Source of the DNA: Branchiostoma floridae
Taxonomy: Eukaryota; Chordata; Leptocardii; Amphioxiformes; Branchiostomatidae
Length of the DNA: 64,000 nucleotides
NCBI RefSeq assembly: GCF_000003815.2
Contig: NC_049993.1
Coordinates: forward strand, 9,555,844-9,619,843
Reading direction: 5' to 3'
Shown: in pieces, positions 20,579-60,000 of the stretch
Layout: each line of letters begins with the position of its first letter
How positions within the stretch are numbered: the stretch's first letter is position 1
Made by a program: the position numbers and the translations under genes
Notes under the pieces: model-generated
Seen by the model: the letters and a program-made list of their open reading frames with translations, nothing else
Databases searched by the model: none
Told to the model about the DNA's origin: nothing

Positions 20579-23500
20579 CTGAAGAACAACCACAGAACAG
20601 TCTTCAGTATTACAGGCTCTCATTTACAATCATCATACCTCAATCTATGTCAAAAACAATGACCATTTTTTCTAACATGTCTGTACAAGGCCACAACAAA
20701 TCAGTATGTTGGTCCTCAGATACAAAATAATAATAATTTTGAACTGAAGTATCAACATGTAAACAAATTCTGAGGGGAAAATCTACACTTAGGGGCAAAG
20801 TTTTACATTCTAGCGTTCCTCTCATTTTGTCCTGACCTCTTTTTGAATTTTCACTTTACACTCACTTTTGTACAAGAACCAAGAAAGAAATTTGTGTGGC
20901 CCTATATTAAAAAAATTATTTCAAATGGCTCTGTATAAATAGTTAAGTTGACATCAGACAACCATCTAATCTTTTAGCAATACATGTATTTGTGGCTTTA
21001 GGTGGTTCGTGTCCCTTTTATGTTTGTTATGCAAATCAGTAGTCTCTACCAGACTCCAAAGGTTGCTGAAAAAACTGTAGAAATGAAACAAATAGAGGAG
21101 TAAGCTGGCCAGAGAAGTACAGCCTGCCCCCTAGCCGGCTGTGCCAGGCTGGGCTGTACGTTCCCTTTGATTCCCCGCCGGCCAGAGAAGTACAGCGCAC
21201 TGTTCCCTAGCTGGCTGTACTTCTCTGGCTGGCTTACCCCTCTATTTGTTCCATTTTTATGGTTTTTCGAGCGACCTATGGAGTCTGGTAGAGACTAGCA
21301 AAGCAGAATGAAATGCATGTGAAGTGACATGGAAGTACGATGACAGTGACTTGTGCATGCTGTGCTACTGATGTGCATTGCATGGTGCATGCTGCAATTG
21401 TGCTACTACAGGCAGGGAATCAAGGAAAGGGAACGTGCAAGCTGACAAAACACACATTTCCATTTGTGCCTGACAACGAGGGGTTAAAACCCAGTATCGG
21501 ATAAGGTTGGGGTTCATCCTAATAGAATGCCATGCAAATAAAAAAATCATGTCACTCCTTCCCCAAGTAAATTTTGAAAACTTTCCGAACAAAAACAGAC
21601 AACTAATAAAAATGGGTCAATGAAAAAGAAATGGAATGTCGAATGTAAATTATTTGAGCCAGCCTTACAGGTATACATGAAGCAAATGTGGGGATGAGCA
21701 GACATACCTTGCAAGAGCTTTTTTTTTTCTTTTTTCTTTTTGCAAAACAGAAATCAGCCGTGCAATCAGATTGAGGAAAAGGATTTTTACACCTCCGTTC
21801 ATACTAAATATTCTTACAGATCTGTAAATAGACGGTCAAGGGACACAGGTTGGACAGTGCTGATTGGTTGATCAGTGATTGGAGACGTGTCCTGATTGGA
21901 TAGCAAGCCAACGGACGGGAGCGAACCTTGCTCACTCATGCCCTCGTCCCAATCCAACTCTGAACCCATGTGTAGATACTGGAAGAAGAAAGAAAAGCAG
22001 CTGTCAGAAAACAATTGACACTGCAAGCATTCAAATCCTATAGAGATCATAAAAACAACACACATAAAAATATCTCAAACAATCTTCTTACATATTTCTT
22101 ATCTCTATCCTAAACCTTGACTCATATTCATATGTAGTCTTAAAACAATTAGATAATAGGAGAGAAATACCAAGACAAAGGCCAAATACAAGTCCAGCAA
22201 AGTGACAGAACTACACTTGGTAAATAGCAGCAACAAAATCTGCATGCTAAGATTAAATGGCAACACTGTTCAGGCTTTCTATTGATCTACTTTGCCAAGT
22301 CACCACGATATCTGAGATCCAAGGAAAAGCATGGTGCTAGGAGTGTTACCAAGCACCTGTAGTTTCTCCAGCATATTTTCCTTCAATGGTTTTAGCCAGG
22401 GAAAAAGCTGAACATTAGCTACATCAACATAAGGCAGTACTGTACACACATGTAACTGTAGTACCCTTGTAACCTAACGGTTTCCTTGTACCCACCTCAC
22501 CCATAACTGCGATGGGCGTCTCTCCCGTGGCGGCAGCGACCCTGTGTTCGATGAGGTAGAACATGTACTCGTCGTACAACAGGCGAATCAGGTGGAAGGA
22601 TCCGAAGCTGGCGGCACTGCGCAGGGTCAGGTCCCGAATCACCATCGAGCTATAGGGGAGGGGAGGGGGGTGATTACGGACCAGGGATAAACACAGGAAT
22701 GGTTAGAAAAGAGTCAGGAATGGCAGGGATTTTTTTTCCCCTTGTATTACTTATTTTAGGCGGGCAAAAATTCTAGTGATACATATTACAATGCAGTTAA
22801 ACAAAGTAAACTGAAATGCACGATGACACAAAGTCCAACTCTAATTTTGTGCATAATAGATACATTTATCCTTCATTAGATAGGACAAGCAGTGCTTTTA
22901 CTTCAATAGGAAGTAGGCTGAATAAAATTTTTAACTGGAAGCTATGTTACTACACTGTCCACCCAAAAAAGTCAGCAGATTTTCTAGGGTCGGTCGGGAA
23001 ACAGGAAACACAACATTTTTTTCCTAGGCCTAAACCCCGTGTCTGTCCTCCTACCTGTAGAAGGACCACTTGAGCAGGAACTGTCTGGCTGCCTTGGGGA
23101 AGGTCTCGCTGCCCTCGTACGGCTTGAGGACCTGGTTGACCACGCTGTCCAGCCATACTGCCCAGGCCTCCAGCGAGTTCTGCTGCTGCAGTGTCATCTT
23201 GAAGTCCTGCTCTAACCTGTGCACCACCGCGTCGTCACACTGACACACCCACGACGCTTGCTCCTGTGGGACAAGGTAGGTAGAGGTCAGGCGTAATTGT
23301 TAAACCCCTTCAAGGTGTGACACAACAATTTTGTACAGTACAAGCTACATACATTAGGTATGGAACCCCTACTTATTGTTTTTAAAACATGCTTAAGGTG
23401 TGGCTCTCTTCTAACACTGGAGTTCTATTTTGGGCCCCATCCAAAAAGGATCTCCTTACTGAAGCTAGGTGCTCATTTGTACCATGCCAAGTGAGGAAAT

Positions 23501-26500
23501 TGGTATTAAGTGCCTTTCCCAGGGGCAGAACATTGGTCCTGCTGGGGATTTGCACTCATCTCACTCAACAACCCTAACCCCGCAAAGCTACATGCCACCA
23601 CCTTTTTAGTACGCAAGCAAAATTTAGCCAGTGTCTTGTAAATCTTTGACACAAATTACACAGATAATACTTGAGACTCATAATGTACCAAAATACAATT
23701 ATATGCTAAATTGTGTTTTTCTCACCTGTACATGTGCGAAGTCCACCCTGTTTAGGTCGCTCAGCATCTGGTTGATCTGTGAGGTGTTCTGTAGGACTGC
23801 GCGGGCCGCCTGTGCCAGATGGTTCAGCGATGTGTACCTCCGTAACGTCTGGGAGAACGCGTTCACTGCTGAAAGCTACAGGGGACAATGCAGGGTCTTG
23901 TTAACATGACCGTTAGTAGTAAATATGTCTACTTTTATCACAATAATGTTTGATACAGATGTGGAGTAGCTGCATGGCAAAGAGCCTACACACACAAAAT
24001 TCTAACAAGATTCCTACAAGCAAAACAATGAAAATTTCTACAAGAAAACACACTACAGATGTCTATCAGTCTAAAAAGAAAACATAAATGGTCTATGTTG
24101 ACATGAAAAAAAAAACTTGTTTTAACAATGTTTTATGTCTCTTATTATTGATAAGGTCATATACTAGTTGTTTCTTTACCTTGGTCTTCACCATCTTCTT
24201 TGGAATGTTGGTCATGGCTGCTGACAGCCAGCCTTCCAGGGACTTAGCAAAGTTCCGGATGGCCTGAGTAAGGGCACCTGAGGACAACACAGAGCATCAG
24301 CACAGGCTCATGTCAGCCTGTCTCTTGGACAGGCAAATTTCAATTACTAGCATGTTTTCAGCATTAGCCTTGTTTCTTTGGCAGTCAATGAACAGGATTA
24401 GCATTCCCAAAATAATTTCATCAGGTTGGTATGTCAGGATAGTAGAGTTTTCTTTCACACAACCACTAAACCAGTTACCTGCTGAAGTTTTGATGTCTAT
24501 CAGACATCTCTACTATCCTAGGATTAGCATTGAATTTCTTCCAAAGCAAAATTTTATTATTCAGACCCCCTGATGCATTGTGCATAATAGTCATTGCTTT
24601 GCCTATTCCATTTACTCAAACTAGTGCATGTTTCAGCAGCATTGAAACTGACAAAACACGCCATTGTACTCTCTTTTTGGAGAGTTTCAACTAGCAAATC
24701 TGAGCGCAATTCAATTCTAACAGCATATTTGCACAAATTCTGACCTCCATTTTTGACTGGACTTACTTGGAATGGGCCTGAGAACATCAGGAATGAGGAC
24801 CTCCACTAGTGACTGCTTAAAACTTTTACTAAAAGACGTGATCACACGAGGGCATGAACGAGCGTGCACACCTCCCCTCACTAGTAATACTAGGAGTAAT
24901 TAAATTCTGACATCTTTAACTGGACTTACTTGGAATGGGCCTGAGAACATCAGGAATGAGGACCTCCACTAGTGACTGGTAGAAGACGTGATCACACGAG
25001 CGCATGAACGCGCAGACCGGCTCGTAGTCACACAGGATGTACAGCTTGTCTTTGGTCAGTCTCTTCTCCATGTCCGCGTCGTTCTGTCCCTCCCCGCCCT
25101 CTGCGGGGTTCCTCCAGAACGTTCTCCAGACCTGCTCGATCAGCGCAAACTGGAGGTTCACCACCACGTCTAGGATGGCCTGTCAGGGGCAAAATGGTAT
25201 GTATTAGTTAAACAATGGTCCTGTTCACTACGAAGATTCAGATTCAGCTTTATTGGTCCTTGACATTATAAATGTCACATGAAATGCGCCAAGAATTACA
25301 TTCCATAAAATCCTTGTTGTTACAATCCACAAACATACATAATCACATTTTGTTAAAAAGACCTAGACACTGGTTTAAATATAGCATTGGCGGAGAGACA
25401 AGTGGGCATAGCAAACAATAACGGACCAGAAGGAATCTGAAAAGGACTTCCATAGGCGTTTTAATTATTCTACAGTAGAAGTCGCTTATTAGGGAAGGCC
25501 ATTTGCCAGCTAAATTTTCCCGACTAACCGGCGTTCCCGATTAAAAGATGTTGCTCGAAATGACCCGAGTGGGGATGGGGGAGGGGGGCATCGGTGAATG
25601 CATCGCACGCATTGACACAAAGAATACAACACAATCATTTCTACCACAAATAATCAAGTCCATAACCACTTTCAGCTTCAAATTTATCTTTTATCGGTAA
25701 TTGTGATATTGTTATCACATTTTAGTGTCGAAGAACGAATCGCGATGCATCAAAAGATCTGTTACGTTTCGTCTATAGTATCGGCTTGAAGAAAACAAAG
25801 AAATTAACACTGCTAAAACACGTTGAGCTACCGAAAAAAAAACGAGGTACATATGCAAACGTATTCTAAATTTGCCAAATGAACAATTGTTTTGATTAAT
25901 AGAGGACTGTTCAATGGGAAAAGTGCACGCGATTACTACGTAAGATTTGTCGACATGTGATACACAGACGAAAAACATCGCTACGTTGTAGGACGAAAAC
26001 GCTCTTGGTTTTCAGACAAACTTTATGTACTAGGCGAAAATACTCATGACTAACGCATAAATAGACTGTTAATCTTCATATCTACAAATTTTCCAGTTAC
26101 GATGTCCACAGATTACACTGAAATTTTGCCACAGTCGACAGCGTCATTTTCAAAACATTTCCATCACGAAAACAAAGATGGCGGACGCGGCGTCATGTGT
26201 AGTATCCCATGATTCCCCGCGGCAACCGCCGGGCCGCGCGCTAGCGACGTAAATTGAATAGAAATCGCGGCCTTTTCGGACTCAAAACAGGCAGTTTTGA
26301 TACTTTTGGCGATCTGATATCTTTATACGGGAAAATTTTGGTTCATTCCTGCTGATTCTGGTGATTTGTTTGGCATATTTCGGGGTTAACATGCGTTGTA
26401 ACTTGAATTTTTTTCCCGATTAGCCGATTTGGGCTTTGCAAATATGGGGTGCTGTAAACAATAGCGCCAATGGGAAATGGTTTTGGATTTCAAAATTCTT

Positions 26501-29500
26501 TGCAACTAACCGATTTTTGCGACTAAGCGTATTGCAAATAGCTGGCTTCCACTGTATCTTCATGTAAACAACACTAATGCCTCTATTAACTTAGACCAAG
26601 TTTGTACAGGTACACATCCCTAGTAATGTATGAAACCAACGTTGGAAAATCATTCAATCAATAGTGTTGTAGGATGCTATTAAAAAAAAACGAGTGGTTT
26701 AAATTGTTAAGCCCATTCAAGGAATGTATTCTGATTCTTTTCAGAGATGGACCAAAAAAATTGTTTCTGTTAATTGAGTAGTTGAATTTTGAAGTGAAAC
26801 TGATTAGGCAGGGGAGGGGAATTGTTATCACAATGACATCTCTACTAAGGGAAAGACCTAACTACTACCTCTTGGAATCACCACTCAATGTCACAGAAAT
26901 CCATGTAAGAGTATCTGAGACAACCTGTGAAGAAATCTGCATACAAATAAAAAAACTAATGATACTACAAATATAAATTCAAATGGTTGTTTTGAAGGCA
27001 ACATTATTGGTTTGGTAGGTAAACAACTGTCTTCAACTCACCTCACAATGTTCCTTGTATAGAGTCTGGAAAGTCTTGACATCGTCCGCGGTTACGCCGC
27101 TCGGGACGGGGTCTGACGTCGTGCTGATCTCGGGAAAGGTGGGCAGGGCGCTGGACGCATCGCCTAGGAACTGCTGGTGCTGCTGCTGCTGTGATTGGCT
27201 GGAATCCCCTGCGCCACTGGCCGCTTGGTCCGCCCCTGCGTCTCCGAGCCCTTCCGGCCGCGGTACGGTCGGTTTGAACCTACAGGGACAAGAAGAAAAT
27301 GCACACATCAACATGTGTCGTCAGGAGAACTTTCCATCCACTGCAGGCTTCAACATTACTTATGCAGAAAGGCTACGGTCTCATTTCCAGATGGGCCCAC
27401 GGGCCAGGCAGTTTGTGGGAACAAAAAGTATGGCACAAAAGTCAACAAAACGAAACATTTGACTATAATTTGTGGGATATTTCTTTATGTTCCCACAATC
27501 AGCACAGTTTTGAAATGTGACCTGAACATAAGAGGAACTGTTACACACTACCCTACCAGCATCTACACCACATCAGCAACTGCCCGAGGTCCCTGCTGCC
27601 TAACATTAGCAGACTTATGGTGAAACAGTGCATAGGAGATGAACAAAGTACATAAACAACTGCCTACGAGTTTGAAGAAAGTGCACCGGACTAAATGTAA
27701 ACAGTGGTTACAAGTCCAGCCCCACAGAAATGTGTTAGTACACAGAACCACACACACAGCACACACACAACAAAGGAGCTGACTGGGACCACACACCCCG
27801 CAGGAGAATCACCCGACCCTACCCCGGAGCAGCCGACCTTCGTTCGTTCGTTCGTGTCGTGATTGGTGGTGGCGGTGAGAACGAGCGGTAAGCCACGAGC
27901 TGTGCTTACAGAACTGGGGAGTGCCGTTACTTACATGTACCGCTTGCCCTGGTTAATGGGCTGTTGTCGCATGGCCATGTGACCCTGGTCTTCCTGTAGT
28001 CTGTTAAGCGGCGAGGTGGCTTTGATCCGGATGCCATAGTAATGATACTTGGAGTTCCCCCTAGGTAGCATCAAAATAAAGGATAAAAGTTAGTACCTTA
28101 GACTGGTGGCGGGCGGCGACTGATCCAGAATGGGCAGCTGGTTCAGAGGCGACGACGGCTTGATGCGGATACCGTAGTAGTGGTACTTGGAGCTCCCCCT
28201 GGGTCGGTACAAACAGAATAGAGGGTCAGTACGTCCGGAGGCGGCACGCGGTCACGTGTGTCCGTCTTCTAAACACATCTGCACATGCTTAAACTGAAGT
28301 GAGAGAACTGGGATTCACTGTGCTCATAATCCTTCAATTAAAATACACTTTACAATATTAATGATGTTTATATGCACCTTTCTAACCTATCAATAACATG
28401 TTGGAAAGCAAACTACAATCTGACTTAGCTCGTAGCCTGCTCTTTTGAGAGGATAACCACACAGCAAATATTGTAAAATTCATCAACCATTATGTAAATG
28501 TCTTTCCTGCTATTAGCTACATTTGTGTGTATAGTTGCTAACACTAAGGTCAAAACTGAAACATCCTAACGATCATGCAGTTTCTTCATAAGCTGCTAGG
28601 TGTAGTACATACTGTGAGTCTGACCGATATTCACTATCTTATGACTACTCAAACTAATATTGAGGAGAAGTTGTCTTGAGCAAATCTAAAAATGCTTGAA
28701 TATTGGCATTTAATCAGTATATTATCAGTCAAGTTAAGTCAGTCAGTTTATCGTTGGACTGTGTTGGACTAGACACATATAGAGCTAGAGAAAAATAACC
28801 ATGTAAAGATAAAACAAGTTCTTGCACTTCTTGCTTTCTGTGATAGCAGGAGAATGTTGGCTTCCTAGGGAGAGTTCACTTGTCCCTGGAATGAGTTGTT
28901 AGGCAGAAGTCTTTTCTAAACCTGAACATTACAATACAGAAGCTGTCTTGAGGTTTGTTTCATTGTACTTTCAAGTATATCAAAATGTAACATTCAAAGA
29001 ATCTGGGCAAAACATTGCTGTGATGCTATACTAAAAAAAAACTTTACCCTTTGCAGTAAAAAAACAAAACAATTCAATGAACGAAGAAGAAAAGGAATCC
29101 TTCCAAACATTTGGTGTCCCACCTCTTCTTTTTCTTGAACTCCTTGCTAGGGTTGCGATATTGGATCTCCATTCTCTCCCCTAATTTTGCCGGGCACGGT
29201 TACAAACTAAGTTGGAGGAGTTTTTAGCCCAACATCCGGTGGAGAAGAACAGAAGGTAACTGACGAGGGCGTGTGTCGTCAGGAGATTTAAGAATGAACC
29301 TGCCCGGTAGTAATTAGCTACCATTGTATCACCTCTACCATCAGCAAACCATAGCAGCATCACTGTGGTTCCCAGTGTTTGCCCAGGCACCCAGAAATGA
29401 GAGTTTGTCAGAAGCCATAGCAACAGAACCAATTTCAAAAGAGGGTTTGAACAACAGCGTCCAACGGTAACTCATCATCATTAGGGCTTGCTGAGGGATT

Positions 29501-32500
29501 TTCTGACTGTAACTTAAGTAAACTTGCTTTAAGCAGGGTTTTCTGTAATGTGTATCATAATAAAAAGGGGGAAATGATAAATTTGTCATCATAAATCAAT
29601 AAACTATCTACTTTTGATTGTTCTGGCTTTACGCGAAATAGCTATGTTGCCAAGAAATTGAATTTTGTTAAAACTATTTGTAGTTGGATTTTACAGAAAA
29701 CAGTTGCAGTTTTGCAAAAGGGGTCTGCTTGGTCTAGCTCATCAAAATGAATGCCTTTTTTGGCAAACCAAAAAAGTGAAATTGATAGAAATATAACTGT
29801 TACACCAGAAGTTCATTTGAGTTTTGTCGATTCATAGGTAAGTCATGAACAAGACAACTTCTTCTGTTGACATGTGTCCTCATATAAAATAGTTCAGTGT
29901 ATAGTTTGTAGTCCATTTTCTTTTTCTAACAACAACACTGTCCCACTATAGCAAGCCCAATGCCTGCCTTTCCTTTTCTGACTGGAGTTGATGGAAAAAT
30001 GACCAACCTTGTTCCTAGTCTCCTTGTTCTCAACCCAAGAAAAACGGACCGGATGAGTTTCCCGAAAGACGCTGCGTTGACGGGGTCGAGCTTGTGTTCC
30101 TGACAGTGCCGTAAGTAGTGGTTGTACAACGTGCTACGAGGCAAACTCACGCCTTCCGCAGTTTCATAGTTCTCTAGCAACCATTGTATCTGAGGGGAGA
30201 AATGGCATTTAAGTGGATAAGTTGACATATCTTATCCTACATAACAGAATGTCTCTCAGAAAACTATAACTCTATGCACTCTTGAAAAGGAACAGACAAA
30301 TGTAACACCATCACACGAACACTACCATGCATGACTAGCTTTCTTTTCTCCTTTTTCAAATCAAACAAGGAGCAAAATTACTCTTCTTTTGACCAAATAA
30401 GTTGCAACAATTTCCCATACTTGTCCAAGAAAGGATGCATTTTCAATCCAGACAAAAAAAAAAGGAAAAATAAGAAGGGGGAATGTTTGGGGACAAAAAT
30501 GAAACAACCACAGAAAAAACATACATATATCTAACTTCATACCCACCAGCGGTCTTTGTTGTACGGAGTCCCACAAATCCCGCTGGTCTCACCGAGAAGG
30601 AAAAGAGAGATTGCGTGAATGAACGAAGAGTTTCATACAGGAGACACGGCAAAGTACCAGGGGAAAACGGAAAGGCATTTTTTGTCGTCAAACTGAGACA
30701 CGTCAAAAACAAAACAGGATACGCAAGAAACTGGGAAAGGGCATCGCTTTTGTTCAACTCAAACTGAAAAGAGAACTGTTTCAGTCTTTTTTCGTTAATC
30801 CAAAAAGCTGAAAGCTTAAATGAGTAGCCAAACTCAAGCTTGGAATGAACTTGTTCCAGAAAAAATAATGCAGAAGGGGTAGCTATGTGTGGAAGCTGGT
30901 TGGAGAAAGATTGTGAAGCTGGTTAACAATCTCTGAGCAGAACTTTACAGCATAAACAAGGCAAAGCTTATAGTGGCAGCATAGACATTGCAGAGAAGAA
31001 ACCATGTGAGCAACAATGCAATAGATGTGGTTAGGTGTGTACTATCAAGCCAAACAGAACATTATGTATATGTATAAATGTACAGGAGTGATGTTATGAT
31101 CAACAGAAAGAGCAACCATCCAAAAATGGTCTACTGGTGGAGAGGAATAAGCAATTGAATGAATACAAAGTGCTAAAAGAACTGCATGCTTGTTGTGAAA
31201 GAATGGTTGCGTGTGGTGCGTATACTCTCCCACATAGCACACTTCTCCTATGTGGTAAGTTACTCCGTGAACAGTCAATACAGCAGTGTGTCGCTTTCCT
31301 CGAACATTCCTTCCATTTTGCATTCCTACACTTCAATAAAGTAACGAATCTTTTCCTTTTTTTTCAAAGTTTTTGGTTGTTGTTTTTTTGGATGGTGTTC
31401 CCTTGGTGAGATCAGCAGAGTTTGTAGACTCACTTGTAGCAAAGCCCACTGGTAAAATATCCATTCTGCAACAACATCTTCTGCAATACCGTTAAGTTTT
31501 AGACCACTATGATTATTTTGTACCACATAACTCCACCACTCTATGCTTTAGATTAAACATTTTTTAGGCAAGATACAATGTTGGGCGCTCAGTAATGTGG
31601 TACAAGGAGTGGTAAGTTAGTGTCCGCGGCGGAGAGTATCTTACCGTGATAGGAGAAGCCCGTGTGGGGTATGTGACAGGATGGCCCTGTGAAAAGATAA
31701 GAACTTAGGGATGGTCCAAAAAATGAGAGCTCACTGCTAGCAAAATCTAATTCTTATCCCTCTTAGCTCTTTGTTCAGAGTAAGCAGAGGGATATTTCAT
31801 GTACTAAAAGAATAAAAGAGAAACAAGAATGCTAGTAAAAATGTTATACAATAGATTGGGATGTTTTCGCTAACATTTTCATGTACAAACTACTTAACAT
31901 CCTCGCTAATTTTGCCCTCGAAAAAACTTTAAAAGTTAACCTGCAATGGTATCCATACATGAAGTAGCAAAAAAAGTGCTTGTATGGATTTCAAACAGTT
32001 AGGAAAAAAAAAGTTGCAACCAATTTTGTGGAAGGATCGCAAGGGTATGTGCCTTTCCAGAAACAATTAGGGTTTCCTTCCTTGAGAGCAGGAGAAGACT
32101 CTTAGTTTGTTGAAGGTCTCAGTTCAGAGTTGTAACAATTTTGGGCTAGTCAGACTCTTTTTCAGAAAGGGCTTAGCAATTCTCTGAACAACATTTTCCC
32201 ATGGAAAGGGGTGCCTTGCCAGGGACTGACAGTTACATTTTCTGTGGACAAATTTTCTTCTGCTTTTCAGGGAATAAAAAACAATTATACATAGATACAG
32301 CAATAACCTAAAAATCAGGAGCCTGAGAGAAAACATAATTGAATGTTATTTTTCTGGGGCTTTTTCTTATTCAACCACCCGGTACTGTTAAAGCCCGAAT
32401 CGGAACCTGGACTTACCGACGCGCCAGGGTGAGCTCTGGCGAGGTGGCTGTGGTCCATGCCCTGTATGATGTAGGTCCCTCCCGTGGCCAGGAGCGCGGG

Positions 32501-35500
32501 GTTGACTGTCGCCTGTGCAGGCTGAACCCCCATGGCTCCTGACGTCAAGGTGGTGACCACGCCTGAAGCGGGTGAGATTCAAAACACACTCTTTACTACT
32601 ACATCCTGAACTTCTACATCATCATCATCATCGTTCATCCTCGTATGAGGTGGAACAGACGAAGTTAGTCCTCCAGAACAGCTTGTCCTTCATCGCGGAG
32701 AGTAGCTCTTGCCCTTCCAGCCCTGTTTCGACCTCAATGAGTTTCTTAAGAGTTGTGCTTGGGCGGCCAACCCTTCAACTTCTACATACTACATATTTTA
32801 CATGTGTATGTCTTGAACGGAATTTTCATAATAATATCACTTCTAGACCATCAAAGTTTAAAGTTTAACAGGCCCTTTGTTTTGCATTTTGAGAATACAA
32901 AATAAACTCAATACAATGTCTATACCACTGAAAAATGTCTATACCCTTTGTTAAAACTTTGAAACTTTATTAGAATAACCATTAGCGGTGGACCCTAGGG
33001 TCCACCGCTAGTCTTCCTGGTATTCATTCACAGAGACAATACATTATACAAACATGGTTGGCAACTAGACAAGTCACAAACACATCTAAATCAATAACAT
33101 ATTTACAATATACTTAATTTAAAAATTGACAATCCTGTCGCACAGTGCTTGTAACTACTGGTGGAGGTATTTGTGCAAACCATCCTTAAACACTCTCAGG
33201 GATTGTGTGGATTGCATGACAATTGGAAGGTTATTCCACACACTGACAGCCCTGTACATGAAACACTTCATCAGTGCGTTAGTTCTAGGTTTCTCTAACA
33301 GAAAAGATTGTTTAGCAGCAAAACGGGTTCTGTAACTATGCAAGTTGTTGACCGAACGCAGTTGCCTACTGATACAAATAGGTTCGTTTGTGAGTGTTAT
33401 CCTTTTAAATGTTGTCATGGTGTTTATTAACAGTCTCGTGTGCACAGGTTTCCACTGTGGCTTCGACTGAAACAGACGAGTTGCCTTGTTCTGCATTCGT
33501 TGCAGAAGGTTTATGTTAGTTTTAGTTGTGCATGACCAAACTGGGCTACAATAATCTATGTGAGATAGTACAAGGCATTCTATTACAATTTTTAACAATT
33601 TTGATCCATAATGTATGCGCATCTTTTGATCATCCCCAGTGATCTAGCCATTTTCTTAGATGTTAATTTTGTGTGAGTATTCCAGGTAAGGCACTCATCT
33701 ACTGTCGAACCAAGTAGTTTTAGTGTTAGCCAATAGTTCATGTATGTTATACATGGGAGGAAGCTGCAATTTTCCTTTTTCATGTTACTTAATTATATAT
33801 CAAATTATGCTAAGTATTAAAGAATATTCATACAACAAATTAACACATTTATCCTCCAACTGGCAGAAGAAAAAAGAAGAAAATGCCACACACCTAGTTG
33901 CTGCCTACCTGCAGTCGTTGTCTGGCCGGCGTCGAAGTACGCCGTCTGACCCGCCTGTGTGTAAATCTGCGCGTCGCTGTAGGCATAGGTGGTTGGGCTA
34001 TTATGGTGATGAACGGTAGAAACAAAAGGTTGAAGAAAAAAACGAAGGGTTTCGTACAGGGCCAGACCAATCAGGTGGTGCAACGCAGCAAGCCTTGCAG
34101 GAAGCTTTCTACTGCCTTTTCACAACTACTTTTTCTTCAAAAACATTCGCACAGTGCACACTACTCTACAGGGGAAACATTTAGTGCAGTGTAGCAGTAG
34201 ACACAAACATGCTGTGGCTGTGTACCTAAAATATTTTCAGGCACAGGTATCATGTCCAGACCTGTACCTTAACAATTTTACAGTTCTAGGACGAGGTACA
34301 CTACAAAATACAAGACATTTCTGGCACTGTTTTGGTCGGGCCCTGTACTATGGCATTAAAAAAGGCACCACAGCACTCAACACCAAGACAGTGGGGAAGA
34401 TAAAAGATTAGTGGGGATTTGAGAAAGCATGGAGATAACCTAATGAAATAGCTATACATTAAGGAAAGAGTTGGCAAAAAACAGCACATTTCTTTGCTAA
34501 TGTGATGTTTGATTTTTAGGCCACAAAAACTTGATTTCCTGGATGACAGCAGTGAGCATATATTTTTCATCCAACCAAACACCTTGCATTAACTGTTTTT
34601 AATGGGAAACAATAAGTGAGACTGTTCACTGTAAAAATTCATTTAAAGAACACCACAAAATGAGCACATTTTCAAAATCTTGTAGCAGAATTGGACTTAA
34701 TGTGGGGCTGTCATCCCCAAATCAAGTTTGCGTGGCCTAAATAACAAAGCATATGTGTTGCAGAGGTTTTCTTGCGACTAAGTTGATAGTGCAAGAATCC
34801 ACCCAGTCCAAGCAAGGACCACATACAGTAGAAGAAAACACTACAAAATGGAACAAACTTTAACAACTAAATTGCCCACAATCACAAGATTATTGAATCA
34901 TGCAGCAGGAAACTGGGGAGGAATACAACAGCTCTACTTCACGTATTTAACAGTCGGCATTATAGACCAGAATTTTGCTTTTTAAGTAAGCTGTCAGTGG
35001 CTTACTGATCTGGGACCTAAACAAGTTTGGCCAACTACATAATTATGATCATGCAGTCAACTGCTGTTTTTTAGTGGTAAATTATCATTTTAGGATGAGG
35101 ATTTACATGTTTCAAACCTCAAAGAAAGTGTATCTAGAGAAGCATCTTCAGTGACAAGTTTGGTACAGAAGTAGAGCTGTGTTCAACCTCCCCACTTTCC
35201 AATGATCAGAAATCACGCCCAAATCACACCCTTACATAGTTCCATTGGCATAGATATTGGCTGTGCTGGGATCGCTGGCTTCCACGTACTGCACGTGTCC
35301 AGCGTAGACAGCCTGGGGCTGGGACGAGGCCTGCAGGTTGACCGTGTCCCCCCCACCGCCGCTCCCGCTGCCCTCCTGCAGCTGTCCGTCCTGGTACTTG
35401 TCACCTGCAACAATCACGTGTCCGGCTGGTGGTCAGGAGGTGCACCCAGAGACAGGAGACAGGGAGGAGAGAGGATAAGGTAAAATAAAATAGAGCAATA

Positions 35501-38500
35501 TCTAAAACTCATGAGAAACCTTATAATGCTTTATAGCTTAAGGAGTTCTTACTCTTGAGTCTTGCATTAGAAAATGCACAGAAACATGCATAAGTGAATT
35601 GATACAACTTTAAACAGAAGGTATAGAAGAGAATGTGCACGATAGAAGTAGAGTTTTGAAATCTTTTTACAGGTGTACCAATGACAATAAGATAATTACA
35701 CCAATGAGAAAAAGAATAGAAAGACGGAGAAATGTCACAGTACTGCATATGTTGGTCAAAGTGAAGGGATTTCTAGCTGGAGTTTTTTTTTTGGCATATG
35801 TGTTTAAGGATCAGAGCATATGTTGTTGAAAGATTGTGTCAATTGCTAAAAAATTCTGCTAATGGAGTGTTACTGCAAATGTTATCTATACTAGAGTTAA
35901 ACGAATTGAAAAACAGGTGTTCGGTACACCATATCATACTTTTAATTGGGAAAAAATGTTGGTATTTTTTAACAATCTGCCTTATTAGCTGGGGCTTGCA
36001 AAGGGGATTCCAACACCTAACACTAATTTCAGGAGGCTACCTAAGTATTACGCTAAATTCAAGATGGCGATTACACAAAAATCTAGCTACCTAACCTTAC
36101 AGAAAGGGCAATTCTGACTGGTTCATATCATACTGTAGCACAGACATCGCTGCTCTCAGATGCGGTCACAAAAGTAAAGTATTTACAATGTATAGACTGC
36201 TTGATTCAATTATATTTACAATGCGGTCACAAACATAAAGGAGTATACTAGTAATATACATAACAATTCAATAAGAAGAGTCTCTTTATTCAGAAGGGGG
36301 CATGCAGGCCCTCTCAATAGTGTCAGAGTTGAACACTGACTCCGATACTCACTTGAGACCTGTACAAACTGCTGCTGCTGTATCTGCTGTGTCTGGGGTG
36401 TGGCCTGGATGATACTGGTGGTCCCCTCCTGACCCCCCTGGGGGGCCGACGGGGCCGGGGCTGCCGTCGCTTGGATCGCCGCCATGTCAGTCACAAAAGG
36501 CTGTGTTGCCATCCCACAGCCGCGGTGAAACCTACGATCAAACAAGTTATTTTAATTTTTTTTTTCAATTCTTAACATTTCTTGGTGGAAGTCAATGCGC
36601 AGATGTTGGCACATTGGCGCACCAAATCCATAGTGTCTTTTTGACTCACAGTTAGACAGATTAGCCGAAAAGGCTCAGTGGGCGTCACTCCATGGTTAAG
36701 GGAAAGTCGTGTAAAGTCTCTTTGCCAATGGCACAACGTCGGGGCATGGTAGGTATCGAACTCTGGACCTTTCGATTCAGAGCCAAACCCTCTACCAGTT
36801 GCGCCACAAGTCATAAAACTGGTTACTACAATGTACCTTATAGTTTTACACCACTGAACACAGTGGCTAGCAGACATGAAGGATTGATACCTGGTACTCC
36901 TGGCTAGATGTTATGTCATTGGGAAAGACACACTGCACGTCTTTCCTCACTCCATCCAGGTGTAAAAATTGGTAACTGACTGGTTGGAGAGGTACATGTA
37001 AAAGACTGTGGAAGGAGAGATGGGCTACTCCTTCCAAAACTGTGCCCTGGACACAGTGGATAAAAACCCACTTCTTTTAAAGCCTTTACCTTTCCCCTGT
37101 AGTCCAATTCATTTCTACATGTTCGGCATAGCATCTTATGTAAATTATTGCGTAGAAACCTACAGATGAGACCCCTATGCCGTCAATGATCACTTTACGT
37201 CCTTCCTACGAACACTATGTTAATCCCAGAGTAATACCGCGGCTAGTTCTCAAGGCAGGCAAGTGCTTTTCTGTGGGATGTTAAACCACCTGGTTCCCTT
37301 TATCTTCCAGGTAAATGCAGATGTCCCACATTCATTTAGTACACAGACCGATGATATTCTTTCTTTCTGTAGCCAGTTTTTTTTGTTACATAGGGGAAGT
37401 GAGGTGCTACGTTCCCATGCTTCTAGCATGTGCCCTCTTACTGTTACATATAGGAACAGATTCAAATTGATAACTAACCACCACAGGTAGCCACAATCTT
37501 CAACTGTAACTTGTATGGCAATTATTTCACCCTCAAGAAGCTTTAGCTTAAGCCCTTTGTCATATCTCATTTCCTAAGGACTCCACACTATACGCGCACA
37601 CCCCCCTTCAGTCATTCCGCTCACTTGTACTGCTCTCATTATTTTTCCAGTAAAAAAATGCTTTCTGTCAAAAAACTTTAGAGCTCAGTTTTCCACCCAT
37701 ACTTCATAGATCTTCTTGCCTTACCTATCAGTATTATTACATAAAGACAGCCAGGTGAGATCTTTTAAGTGAGGATTAATGCAGATAAGTGGTGAATCCT
37801 ACATAATGCATTTTTGGGGGGAAAGATTATCATTTGATCCTGGTAAAAGAACATAATGGGTTGCAGAGTCTTTGATGTTAACATTTCTTGTGAAATTGAA
37901 AATTGGTACCATTGGATAATTTCCTTTCATTTTGAAACACCCGATGAGTAAAGTAGCTGCTACTGAGTGCTAGGGTCCATTGTAATGAAACATACGTATT
38001 TATTCTGGCAAAGATATATTCTAACAATTTACAATAAAGCTACCAAAATCAATTCCTTTCTATGAATAAGCATGCTACACTACATTAGCAGTGACTTGTA
38101 CAAGCCTGATACCAGGTGTGACGCATGCAAATTCTCAAACTGGCATACCTACCGATTAACTCACTTTTTTTGTTGTACTACTTGCCTTTTCTAATCTTTT
38201 GAACACTGCCAGCAACTATAGCAAATATCACACATATGGTTCACTAGTATAGTAGTAAACACACCACCAGCAACTACGAACGTGAAATCTGTTACTGTTT
38301 GTTTTACACATAATCAGAAGACCCTGGGTAAATGTTGACCAATGGTACAGCTGTTCCTATACTCCTTGGCATTTTGTGGGTAGCCTTGTGTCCAGTGGTG
38401 TTAGCTTTTCAAGTTTAGTTCCCTTTGAATGGTCACTATGTCTGTTAGCTGGACTCTAGGCTATTTTTTCTAGGGGACTTGTGGAGGGGGGGGGGCACAT

Positions 38501-54005: not shown

Positions 54006-57000
54006 GACAAATGCAATACTTTATCAAATGAAGGAAACCACATCAGAAGTCCGTACCTTGTACTGACTGTACGCTCGACTCATGTCCTTCTGCAGTGCTG
54101 GCGCCCTTCCTGACAGGAACACCTGAAAGGCTTCGTCCAACAGCTGCGTCCACTGCGCCTGTTGGCTCTTGTTCTCTGTGGGGAAGATTCTCCGGAAGCC
54201 TCCCATGTGTCTGTTCTCGTAATCCTCACGCTTACGGTCCATGCGAATCATGTTCAGGTAATGTTTCTGGGGTGTGCAGACAAACCAGAAGTCAGTTTGA
54301 TGTTTAAACACATACTTTCAGCTCTCGCTCGAAAAGGCTGATCAGCCGATTTGCGTGGCTGTTTGACGCTACTCACCCCCCCCCCCCCACTGTTACACCT
54401 TTTAATCACGAGGGAGATACATTTTGTACTTGATAACTTAAAGGTACTTTTAAATCTAATTTTAAGCGGATTCATTTCAACATAAGTTCTGCCATGCATG
54501 CGCATTTCTGGTACATGAAAGTAGAACAACAAAGTTGTTGTAACAATTGTGTTTAAGAACTTAAAAATGCATCCGTTGGATTCCCCAGCCTAAAGAAACT
54601 ACTCGGTCCTGGTAGGTATTTGCAGATTTTTGTGTACCATTTGAAATTCACACTCATATCTTGAATGTATCACAAAAACACAAGTGTGACTCTCTACTTT
54701 GTACCTTAGTCCCCCAGATATCAAGAATACACAGTACATGTATGAACATGTACACAGAAAATCTAGGTACAGACAAATGTTTTTACTCACCAGCTCTTCT
54801 TTCCTCTTGTCTATAGCAATTTTCCTCTGCCTGTCTCCACGGTCCTCCTTACTGCTGTGGTGTTCTGGCCTCTTGGTCGGCCCTAAGAGTCGCCTCTCTG
54901 CTTCTGCCCTCTCCGCACTGATACTTTTTCTTTTGTCTGATACTCTAAAGGTGAGAGAGAAGAAGATCAAGGATGAGCATCAGACTAAAGAATTGGTCCC
55001 AAGACATCTTGCAAAACTACTTTATAGAAAATGGTGTGCTTCATACTATCATATACACAATGTATTAAGTACCATGCACTTATGCTTTCCTTTTGTCACA
55101 CACCTTGACAGTCAGATGGGAAATACGAAAAACAGAATGAGCACCAGACTTAAGAACATGTTTCCAAGACATCTTGCAAATCTACTTCTATAAAGAAGAT
55201 AATGTGCGTAATGAAAGTATGAACTATGCATGTTTGTAGTAATTCTACATAACTGTCAGTGGGGTAGGACAATTGCACTTGCCCGATCAGCACTTTCACT
55301 TGCCCGGGACAATTGGGTTAGTGGTCTTGACCAACCCTGGGTCAAGAGATTGTTCTGCCTTTTTGAAAAAAAAGGACGTACAGAACAGCATTGATATAGT
55401 CACTGACCTGATATTCATCAGTTTGATGGCGTCTCCAAGGAGACCACTTTTGATGTCATAGTCAATCTTCTCGTCCGTGCCAAAACTAGGGGAACGATTC
55501 ACCTGCAACATCAGACCATCTGTTCAGTCATTCATCCAATTCAAAGGCATCATAACACCTCAAGCTGATAACAGTGTGTCTGTACAATACTGACAACACT
55601 TCCTCAATATTGTACATTACATTTACACAACAATTCTTCATCCTTTCTTCATTGTCTTTTACAGCTGACATCAGTTTGCGGAAGATTCACTATGATCTTG
55701 ATAGTAGCTAGTAGTAAGCTAGTGAAAGGCGGCTTTTCTACGACCAGCATATCAGAAATGTGAAATTGATGACTTTGGTACAATTTAAAATCGATCAGAA
55801 TGTAAGCTGTCCCTTTATCCTTTATATCCCACATATATGTACACAGCATAATGGGATCAGTAATTATGTACATACCTCGAACACCCAGGGTTTGAGTTTC
55901 TTGTCCAGAAAGATGTCAAAGCCTAGCACCTCGAAGCAAACACTCTCGTTCGTTGACTGGTTTCCCGCCCGACACATCCGGTACGCGTGAAGTATGTGGG
56001 GCTCCGCTACGATCAAAGTCTTCATGATGAGGTTCTGGATGTTGAACCAGAGCAGGGGCACGTCGTAGCCGTTCTTACTGAGGAAGTTGTTCAGGTAGCG
56101 GATGGACCGTTTGCTCCCCTTGCTGACGTCTTCGTCCTTCTGGAAGTTCTCGTTGTGCTTGTTGACGGAGTAGTTGGTCAGGTGCATGCACAGCTCATCC
56201 TGGGTGGACACAAGTCGACAGGTGTCATGATCGTCAACCAAGGTTAGACATCCAGGTACATGTAATAAGATACGCAAAAAGCGGTTACTCAAGCAACTGG
56301 ATCTGATTTTGGAAACAGTCAGATGTTTCAGACAGTCATTCGGTGCTTTTCATCAGTGACATTCACGATGGCTGTCTGAAACATCAGATCCAGTTGCTTG
56401 AGTGACTGCTTTTTAGCAGATGTCATGATCATTTAGAACATGGAAATTTGCCACGGATCAAATCTTGGGATAAATGAAGTTGCTCATAAACCGTATGTTG
56501 CTGGCTTCTTACGTGGGACATGTTTGATAAGTTTTACAGAGCAGATTACCAATATCAGAAATCATAAATTATGATCACTTCATTTGTGGTCTGGTCAGCA
56601 AAAAAGTCTGCTCCAATAAAACTATCAAAGGAGTTTCCTATCTCTTTTATGGAAAATTTTTTAAAAGTGATTACTAAAATACTTACTAGTATTTTGGAGG
56701 ATTTTTGTTGAAACCATACTGGTAGTAGCAGCATACTTTTTCTACAGTTGGACCAACACCTAAGAGTTTAACATATAAATATGGAGGACATGTACATACA
56801 ATATTGCCATCTGTGGGTGCATGGTACTTTTCCGTCCCCATCCTGACGAGACCATCTTGGTACAGAAACACTCGCAGGGGGTCGCATGAGGTCACCAACA
56901 CGTACACACGTAGGTCGAACTTGTAGCCATCCAACAGGAAGGGCTTGTCCATGTACTCTTGCACAATGATGTGTTCATTCTGGGGTATCTTTTCTCCATT

Positions 57001-60000
57001 GCGATACAGGGATATCCTGTCAACATGGGGGAAAAGGATGTGTCATAGAAAAATTGACGTGTCTAATTCGTACATGTACTACAAAACTACATTATGCTAG
57101 ATACAAACAATGTGGAAATCTTTTTCCAAGGATGTTTTTTTCATACATCAATTAACAAAATGTGTTGCGTCTTCCGAATATATTTTAACATATAACATCA
57201 AGACCACAGCTAGCAATGAATCAGACCTTTACTGGTATCTAAAAGCAACATATCAACACAACTAATGATCTTATATAAGGCACTTAGCAATCTACTGTCA
57301 TACTATGACAGCTAGATGAAATAACTAAATATAGTGCAGCTAAAAATGTTAATACTACTGGGAGTCCAGAGAAAGCAAGGATAAGGAAACAATAGGTGTA
57401 AAAACTGTAATGGCATGTACAATATATGCTATGGCAATTATTTAAAAAAAAACCCTGATATTTAACCTTTAGCATAAAAAGCTCCATCGTCCTGAGAACA
57501 AAAGTTATCCATAGAATGCTAAGTATTAGCTTGAACCTATGTTCCCAATGTTACCTACCCATTTCCCATTGCACCGTTGGCAGGCTTCACGATGAAAGTC
57601 TTTTGTTTCTTCCTCTTCCTAAGCTCCTTGGTGTACGTCTGGAAGGTAGAGTATTCAGCTGGGAAGATCCAGGTACGAGGTGTGAAGTTGTATTCTTCTG
57701 GGCGCTTCCGATTCATTCTGGTAAACAAAGCAAACACTGTTGATTTCAAGAGTTATGTTTTGAAAATACAAAACTTATTACTGTAGATAGTGAATTTAGA
57801 TTAAACCTTAGTCCCTAGAGGCTGGAACCTGTTCAGTGATGTAAGGCCCTCTAGCAAAGTTACACCAAACTGCAGTTGTTGCACAGGAAAGTGAGCTTTT
57901 GGAAGAGACTGAGTGATACTAGCAGGTCATGTATCTAGATCGAAAGATTGATCCAAAGTAGAAGGGTCAGAAAACAAAAACAAAGCAAACTTCCAATACA
58001 CTTGTTGTCTACGTCTGATTTAGTCAGTAGCTCCTCTGGTGATTGGTTGTCTATTTGGTTGATTTCTACTATTTACCAGTGACAACCCTGGAGTTTGTTC
58101 TGTCTGGAAAAGCAACTAGCAGACTTAGACCCCATTCACACTCAGAAAAACGATTCGAATAAAACATTTATCCGAATAGAAAATTTTCTATCCGATCCAA
58201 AATTGTGTTCACACTGCTCTTCAGCAATCCGATTAGTGCGCCCTCAGTCTTATCTGAATAAAACATTAGTTGCGTTTCACAGATGTATCGCTACGTCTTG
58301 TGGTAGTTGGCGGGGAGATTCTTCACTTTATTTCTGCACTGGTCGAGGGATTTCTCAACTCCATGCTCCGCCATTCCTTCGGATATATCTTCATATTATA
58401 ATGTTCCTGTTTTTATGAACCTTCTCCCGAGCTTTTTCTGCGTCTCCTCTCACCCCCAGATGGAAATAAACAGCTTTGTTTGTTACAGTGTCCACTTGGC
58501 GAATGATGAAGATTTCCCTTTCTTTCCACTTATTGTTGTTGGAAGTAAAATACGGCGGAAAATGCTCGCTGAAAAACGAAGCAATCAGGCGTGTGTAGTG
58601 TTTCGAAGTATGACCCCAAGTTCCCGGATGAATGGCGTTACACCACGGAATAAGCGGAATCCTATCCACTTGCGCGTTCACACTGCCGAATCGCACGGAT
58701 CGAGACTCCCCGCGGCGCAGTTTTATCCACTTCCCGGAGTTTTACCCACCTCCCCGAGGTGGATCGCGAGGGATTCGAATCGATGAAATCCAAGTGATTT
58801 GGGAGCGTTCATACTGCTAAGTTTTATTCGGATCGGGTAGTTTTATTCGGATAACATGTTTTATTCGAATCGTTTTTCTGAGTGTGAATGGGGTCTAAGG
58901 TGTTTTTACAACAGTTTTGTCATCCGTTCCATCTTGTATGGTCAACTAGATAGTAAACATATCAACTTACTTGCAGATGTTCCTTGCCAGACAGTCCTTG
59001 CGACAGATCTCCCCCATCCCGGGGAAGTGGTTGATCCTCTGGTATGACTTCAGCTCGGCTATTCTCTCATTCTGCACAAAACTGTCGCTCCAGATCAGGT
59101 AACTGCAAAAGCAGAAACATAAAACTTTCATAAAAGACTAGTGCATATTAGCTTGCTTTTAAAACAGGCTATATTTTCCATCCATGTGTATACACTAGCA
59201 GAAAAAGTAAATTCAACAACAATCTTGTGACAGATTGGTGAAATAGCATCACTGATACTTGAACCTTCTATATATACAGGCTATGTCATGTTTGTACTTG
59301 TGTGTATTTAAAAAAATGTGTGTGTAGTCATCTCACCATTTGGGGTCATCCTCCTTGGAAACCTGCATGCCAGCTTGCTCCACAACTGCATGTACTAATA
59401 AAAAAAGAAAAACCCGACTAGATTAGTACAAGTCTTGTGGAGGTTTACCTAATCACAGTCTAAAAATAATATCTTTAGAATGGAATCTTTGCATTCCAAA
59501 GTAACAAAGGATTGCAGTGCCATGTACAGCCATGTTCAAACAGATGCAACTGACTGCATCTAGGAAAAAGGCCTCTACTGTTTTCGTGCAACCATGCAAA
59601 TTTCATGTTTTGTTGCGCATCTTTTATCTACTTACCAACATCATATCTTGTGCCGTACAAGTTAGCCGTGGCCTGGGACCTCCGTTTGCGAGATTTCTTA
59701 CTGAGCTGGCTCTTCTGAAGTACACTGTCATCGAAGTGGGCATGGCCAGCCTGGGAGGCATCAACTGTGAGAAAGATGAAGGACATAAAAATGGTGTTAA
59801 ATATAACTGGTGTAAAAATGGGTACGTGACTTTGATTGGGGACCTTAAAAGGCAGAGGAAGCAGAGGGTTGGGCTCCAACTTCTGGTGCTGTGCCCATAC
59901 AGCCTTAAAAAGGCTATGGGACCACCTTTACCTTCATAACTTCTTCACCTACATTGTCATATCTAAACCCTGCTTCTGGATCAAGAGTTGGGAAGCCTGC

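Follow-up and report, generated by a model that had tools for sequence, protein, structure and literature searches.

A tandem pair of exons, predicted to be mutually exclusive, in the DNA-binding wing of a probable RFX1/2/3-type gene of Branchiostoma floridae

We analyzed a window of 64,000 nucleotides from Branchiostoma floridae and found, in an RFX gene on its minus strand, two adjacent exons—A and B—either of which can complete the wing of the DNA-binding domain. With a probability of roughly 0.7, they represent a tandem-duplicated, mutually exclusive pair in the wing of an RFX1/2/3-type gene, kept apart by steric exclusion. Mutually exclusive use had been proposed in a preliminary description of this DNA, and the genomic sequence supports it more strongly than was argued there: the spacer between the exons is 36 nt long, and the donor of exon A and the putative branch point of exon B share the bases GTACTAAC. 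We also infer that exon A is used in mRNA.

The gene was assigned by domain profiles and is probably an RFX regulator of the RFX1/2/3 type. The RFX winged-helix DNA-binding domain (PF02257) was recognized with 117 bits in the product of exons U, B, and D and with 115.7 bits in that of exons U, A, and D (cut-off 27); U-B-D matched the RFX1 domain 1dp7 with an E-value of 2.5e-41. The C-terminal dimerization (BCD) region was also present, since both of the downstream exon ORFs submitted matched BCD_RFX (PF25340). An N-terminal activation domain separates RFX1-3 from RFX4/6/8 and RFX5/7 (PMC5838959). The following exons were located outside the A/B region (a slash marks a splice junction throughout):

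36353..36531, minus strand: first coding RFX exon found, by translation and splice-site reading
30008..30189, minus strand: exon U, most of the RFX DNA-binding domain, ending in RTRRLGT and two bases of an Arg codon
27042..27279, minus strand: exon D, encoding the linker that follows the DNA-binding domain and the first part of the dimerization region (...TLYKEHCE)
24930..25179, minus strand: downstream RFX exon, BCD_RFX (dimerization) part, Pfam PF25340, 73.3 bits
24180..24277, minus strand: downstream RFX exon, by translation and splice-site reading
23054..23263, minus strand: downstream RFX exon, start taken from the acceptor and end approximate; PF25340 gave 85.5 bits for 23054-23299
21814..21978, minus strand: last coding RFX exon found, ending in ...RLFTDL and a stop codon

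At least one small exon between 32417 and 30189 is left out of this model, the exon near 23.8 kb is known by translation only, and the N-terminal exons were read by eye. Exon U is constitutive in all products considered, and its donor at 30008 reads AAG/GTTGGT; the acceptor of exon D at 27279 reads TGTAG/GTTCAA. The DNA-binding domain is thus split after the Arg of ...RLGTR, and the remaining part of the wing comes from exon A or exon B.

RFX1/2/3 proteins hold a central place in the regulation of ciliary genes. A gene of the tubulin-tyrosine ligase family, represented by three exon ORFs (55867-57752, minus strand; PF03133: 71, 87, and 26.3 bits), lies on the same strand as the RFX gene and about 20 kb upstream of it; the position of this cilia-type enzyme gene beside a cilia regulator may be a coincidence. 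An RFX intron contained an open frame of 162 amino acids (33155-33643, minus strand) with no Pfam match, which we take to resemble the end of a reverse transcriptase from a non-LTR retrotransposon. Unread bases occur in a run at about 60280-60390.

The A/B region comprised the following features:

28225..28231, minus strand: putative branch point of exon A, TACTGAC, with the branch A at 28226, 28 nt before exon A
28097..28198, minus strand: exon A, 102 nt, phase 2/2; CCCAG/GGGG...CTAAG/GTACTAAC
28089..28096, minus strand: dual-use octamer GTACTAAC, first eight bases on the donor side of exon A and putative branch point of exon B
28061..28096, minus strand: spacer between exons A and B, 36 nt, GT...AG
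27935..28060, minus strand: exon B, 126 nt, phase 2/2; CTAG/GGGG...TACAT/GTAAGT

The complete sequence of the spacer is GTACTAACTTTTATCCTTTATTTTGATGCTACCTAG. The coordinates, splice dinucleotides, phases, and translations of the two adjacent, same-phase exons given in the preliminary description were all verified. Each exon opens with the last base of the Arg codon begun in exon U, and the length of each is a multiple of three. The first 58 nt of the two exons align without gaps, while their tails do not align. The reading frame is kept in all four possible joins (U-A-D, U-B-D, U-A-B-D, and U-D); retention of the spacer leads to an in-frame TAA stop codon, located inside TACTAAC.

Searching all six frames of the window for SKYHY, KYHYYG, or YHYYG returned only these two copies. 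When the exon B protein was searched against the 513-Mb genome of the species itself (E ≤ 10), only exon B and exon A were found among the first-pass candidates scored. No second RFX copy or assembly duplicate was detected, as the 351-base region matched only itself in 513,431,437 bases of 431 contigs. In viral contigs, 46 stretches fitted a pattern and none of them encoded a relative.

The 60 nt 5' of exon A (28199-28258, minus strand) had a GC content of 0.62 and a CpG observed/expected ratio of 1.3, while the rest of the same intron (28260-30007) had values of 0.37 and 0.31, respectively. The CpG ratio was 1.04 in the shared part and 0.73 in the tail of exon A; the corresponding values for exon B were 0.81 and 0.40.

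The heptamer TACTAAC is complementary at every base to the part of U2 that binds the branch point. It occupies positions 28095-28089, that is, bases 2-8 of the spacer; its branch A, 28090, is the seventh base of the spacer and precedes exon B by 30 nt, and a pyrimidine-rich stretch comes after it. Branch points were predicted by motif only, using a hand-made U2-complementarity score; for exon A, the heptamers in the 15-60 nt upstream of it were compared. When the best heptamer of each of 13 acceptors in the gene was ranked, TACTAAC came first with a score of 13.0 and TACTGAC of exon A second with 12.4, the other 11 scoring 8.7-12.0. The whole window contained eight copies of TACTAAC on the minus strand and three on the plus strand. 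In 36-mers simulated from the neighboring introns, TACTAAC was expected anywhere with a probability of 0.0019 and directly at the donor with a probability of 0.00027.

The donor of exon A agreed with the consensus at five of nine positions, the lowest value of the 10 donors scored (the others had 6-8), and may be inefficient. Its mismatches are at -3 and at +4 to +6, the latter three being bases dictated by the branch point.

The exclusion would most likely work as follows. If the octamer were recognized as a donor by U1/U6, the bases needed by SF1/U2 at the branch point of exon B would be occupied, and U-A-D would be formed. If the branch-point machinery took the octamer, the donor of exon A would be hidden and exon B would be joined to exon U, giving U-B-D. 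Joining of exon A to exon B would need a lariat with 6 nt between the donor and the branch base, which should be sterically impossible. Exon B would probably be the default and exon A the regulated form, because no other donor that was scored is as weak as that of A.

The steric limit on the distance from donor to branch point is about 50 nt (PMC7969005), and in 57 of 629 human clusters the distance is under 50 nt (PMC5740500). The 36-nt spacer, with a branch motif at +7 overlapping the donor, points to a block of joint inclusion: joining of A to B should be prevented since recognition of the donor and of the branch point needs the same bases. As all four joins keep the frame, frame loss could not police double inclusion, and the overlap would have to do so. 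An overlap of eight bases between a donor and a branch point would take steric exclusion to its extreme.

That some mRNAs carry both exons, with 34 extra residues, or skip both is very improbable. The translations of U-A-B-D and U-D are open and the frame is kept either way; moreover, the skin form of amphioxus Fgfr adds a cephalochordate-specific exon to a mutually exclusive one (PMC5703972). However, to join A to B, an intron of 36 nt would have to be spliced out with its best branch point 6 nt from its donor, and the U-D product lacks the second half of the wing, so its domain should not bind DNA.

It is also unlikely that the region forms one exon of 264 nt, for which the acceptor of A serves as an alternative 3' splice site, with the donor of A unused and the TAA ending the frame. 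The weakness of this donor among the 10 scored and the in-frame stop directly after exon A are in line with such an arrangement, which would also explain why the likeness to exon B is confined to the wing part and absent from the tail. However, exon A ends with AAG/GTA in the only phase that leads on into exon D (a chance of 1 in 3, judged post hoc), and the AAG before its GT belongs to a pattern, MAG/GT, with a background of only 0.029 in the neighboring introns (also weighed post hoc). Furthermore, the distance from the stop to the next exon junction would be about 155 nt, so that we would expect the mRNA to be lost to decay. If a 264-nt exon were nevertheless used, the outcome would be a short protein that retains the DNA-binding domain and lacks the dimerization domain—possibly a dominant negative form—or nonsense-mediated decay.

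The exon pair is further characterized by the codons that its members share. Over 19 shared codons, 16 of the 19 residues are identical, with three amino acid differences and eight synonymous codon differences. A chance origin of exon A is ruled out by this identity together with the synonymous differences. The Nei-Gojobori values were pS 0.75 and pN 0.069; synonymous sites are near saturation, and the duplication is thus old. Purifying selection over the 19 shared codons was found for both copies. No homology between the tails of exons A and B was detected: the best local match was 12 nt, with a shuffle P of 0.14.

The history of exon A was simulated starting from the codons of B, with an omega of 0.03 for the constrained branch and 1500 runs per setting; omega and kappa were chosen by us. 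Without a free period, the simulated synonymous codon changes were 6.1, 7.9, 9.3, and 9.9 at t = 0.3, 0.5, 0.8, and 1.2, respectively (observed: eight). When A was unconstrained throughout, the probability of at most three amino acid changes and no stop was 0.003 at t = 0.3 and 0.000 at t = 0.5, 0.8, and 1.2; freedom from constraint for the entire history is thus excluded (P of 0.003 or less). Shorter free periods at the end of the history gave intermediate values: at t = 0.5, the probability was 0.10 for an unconstrained final 30% and 0.013 for a final 50%, and at t = 0.8, which corresponds to about the observed synonymous count, 0.049 for a final 20% and 0.006 for a final 30%. Conservation of exon B alone could not yield the codon pattern, which argues for protein-level selection on A. 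The codon pattern and the simulation thus support the conclusion that exon A, as judged from the 19 shared codons, was under such selection for most of its existence.

These results also bear on the view that exon A is a relic, i.e., an old duplicate formerly used and now inactive and decaying, which we regard as quite unlikely. Its weak donor would fit, and the data, from one genome only, are compatible with a recent release in which up to roughly the last 5-10% of the history of A was unconstrained. A long unconstrained period is nonetheless disfavored by the simulation, and exon A retains an intact frame without a stop, the dinucleotides at both of its splice sites, and the near-perfect branch motif TACTGAC.

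Regarding the origin of the exon pair, we tentatively propose that the donor of exon A was born from a branch point. The duplicated unit would have begun at or near the ancestral branch point, leaving GTACTRAC behind the first copy; the GT of this motif would have become the donor of copy 1, and the same bases would have remained the branch point of copy 2. The acceptor regions of A and B both start with GTACTRAC at a nearly equal distance from the AG. In several comparisons, the tail of exon A together with the spacer was aligned with the sequence upstream of exon A, and the results were mixed. The 34 nt of A scored 8.5 against the 36-nt spacer (shuffle P 0.001), with the best of 11 other acceptors reaching 1.5 against B and 6.0 against A. 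With 34 nt on both sides, the score was 4.0 (P 0.028), and one other acceptor reached 4.5 against A. The local alignment of 80 nt gave 14.0 (P 0.003; best other, 12.0), whereas in the global alignment of 80 nt another acceptor exceeded the pair against B (4.0 vs. 3.5). P was 0.0185 in a further setting and 0.10 in a simpler test. Part of the similarity could stem from the branch-point, pyrimidine, and AG signals that acceptors share, and a common origin of the two acceptor regions is a suggestion only.

Duplications engaging the upstream intron have been described for invertebrate tandem exons (PMC5224494, citing others), and the introns flanking consecutive mutually exclusive exons are more alike than other introns (PMC6071210). 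For COE/EBF, selection of a new donor after exon duplication was proposed (PMC2394523). If the donor of A did arise in the proposed way, exclusion would have been in place as soon as the exon was duplicated, with no need for regulators or for policing by frame shifts. Mutually exclusive exons would then have evolved in a single step, with the donor strength and the branch-point strength of the octamer traded directly against each other. B. floridae and B. lanceolatum separated about 72 My ago and Branchiostoma and Asymmetron about 104 My ago (PMC6305399); given these dates, an old duplication should be visible in other cephalochordate species.

As the preliminary description had stated, what separates the two predicted products is the end of the wing and the linker; within the DNA-binding domain the change is small (N to S, A to P). 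The crystallized RFX1 domain aligns through ...GIRIKA, the 14th residue of the exon, and up to this point A and B differ at these two residues only, the A to P change falling on the last residue of the crystallized domain. After the common wing, the product of exon A has a shorter, proline-rich linker, while product B carries a linker of a different sequence, which is conserved in human RFX1-3. RFX proteins use the wing to contact the major groove and helix 3 to contact the minor groove (PMC2533330). Since the linker is the main difference between the forms, the swap would be likely to change the coupling of DNA binding to dimerization or to partners, rather than the contact with the X-box. 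The RFX protein made from the U-D join, which keeps the frame, would lack the second half of the wing and may be unable to bind DNA; isoforms without the DNA-binding domain were reported for human RFX genes (PMC5838959).

Exons 18 and 18b of FOXP1 are mutually exclusive within a winged-helix DNA-binding domain, and their exchange alters DNA specificity; in the RFX pair, by contrast, the recognized residues are kept nearly unchanged and the linker changes. The nearest known cases are exons 4a and 4b of OGDH, alpha1 and alpha2 of MEF2, and IIIb and IIIc of FGFR. The OGDH exons are a tandem pair in which the branch points of the second exon lie below the steric distance from the first donor, which prevents their joining (PMC7969005). 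In OGDH, however, the branch points are 25-41 nt from the donor, whereas the RFX branch base is at +7 and its heptamer overlaps the donor; exclusivity was proven there by lariat mapping and mutation and is predicted here. The alpha1 and alpha2 exons of MEF2A/C/D are mutually exclusive and adjoin the DNA-binding domain of a transcription factor, and their swap alters partners, activity, and the use of co-repressors and co-activators (PMC5852603), an effect comparable to that suggested above for the RFX linker. MEF2 belongs to another family, its exons follow the domain, and their exclusivity is experimentally established, whereas the RFX exon also completes the wing.

The IIIb/IIIc exons of amphioxus FGFR are a proven case of tandem-duplicated, mutually exclusive exons in a cephalochordate gene, regulated by tissue (PMC5703972), but they encode part of a receptor, not a transcription factor, and their duplication is shared with vertebrates. 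In COE/EBF, the tandem duplication of an HLH exon also affected a transcription factor (PMC2394523); vertebrate EBF includes both copies, whereas exclusive use is predicted for RFX. Exons Ab and 3 of U2AF1 are duplicated exons explained by duplication of the upstream intron together with the exon and by branch-point organization (PMC5224494); they differ in that their regulation depends mainly on multiple weak branch points and on trans factors, not on an overlap of donor and branch point.

In the parts of the open-access literature presented among the matches listed, no report of a mutually exclusive RFX wing exon or of a base-for-base overlap of donor and branch point was found. The accessible portion of the amphioxus functional genome paper mentions RFX only as a binding motif (PMC6292497). 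Mutually exclusive tandem exons governed by steric exclusion are already known, while the RFX wing pair and the base-for-base overlap are new within the literature covered. A survey of human RFX genes found that the isoforms of any one gene mostly encode identical proteins; RFX1, RFX4, and RFX8 are the exceptions (PMC5838959). A switch of wing and linker therefore differs from the pattern in that survey. If two RFX forms are made, a chordate outgroup to vertebrates would be using exon duplication instead of gene duplicates, and the RFX exon pair would directly test how isoforms and paralogues substitute for each other.
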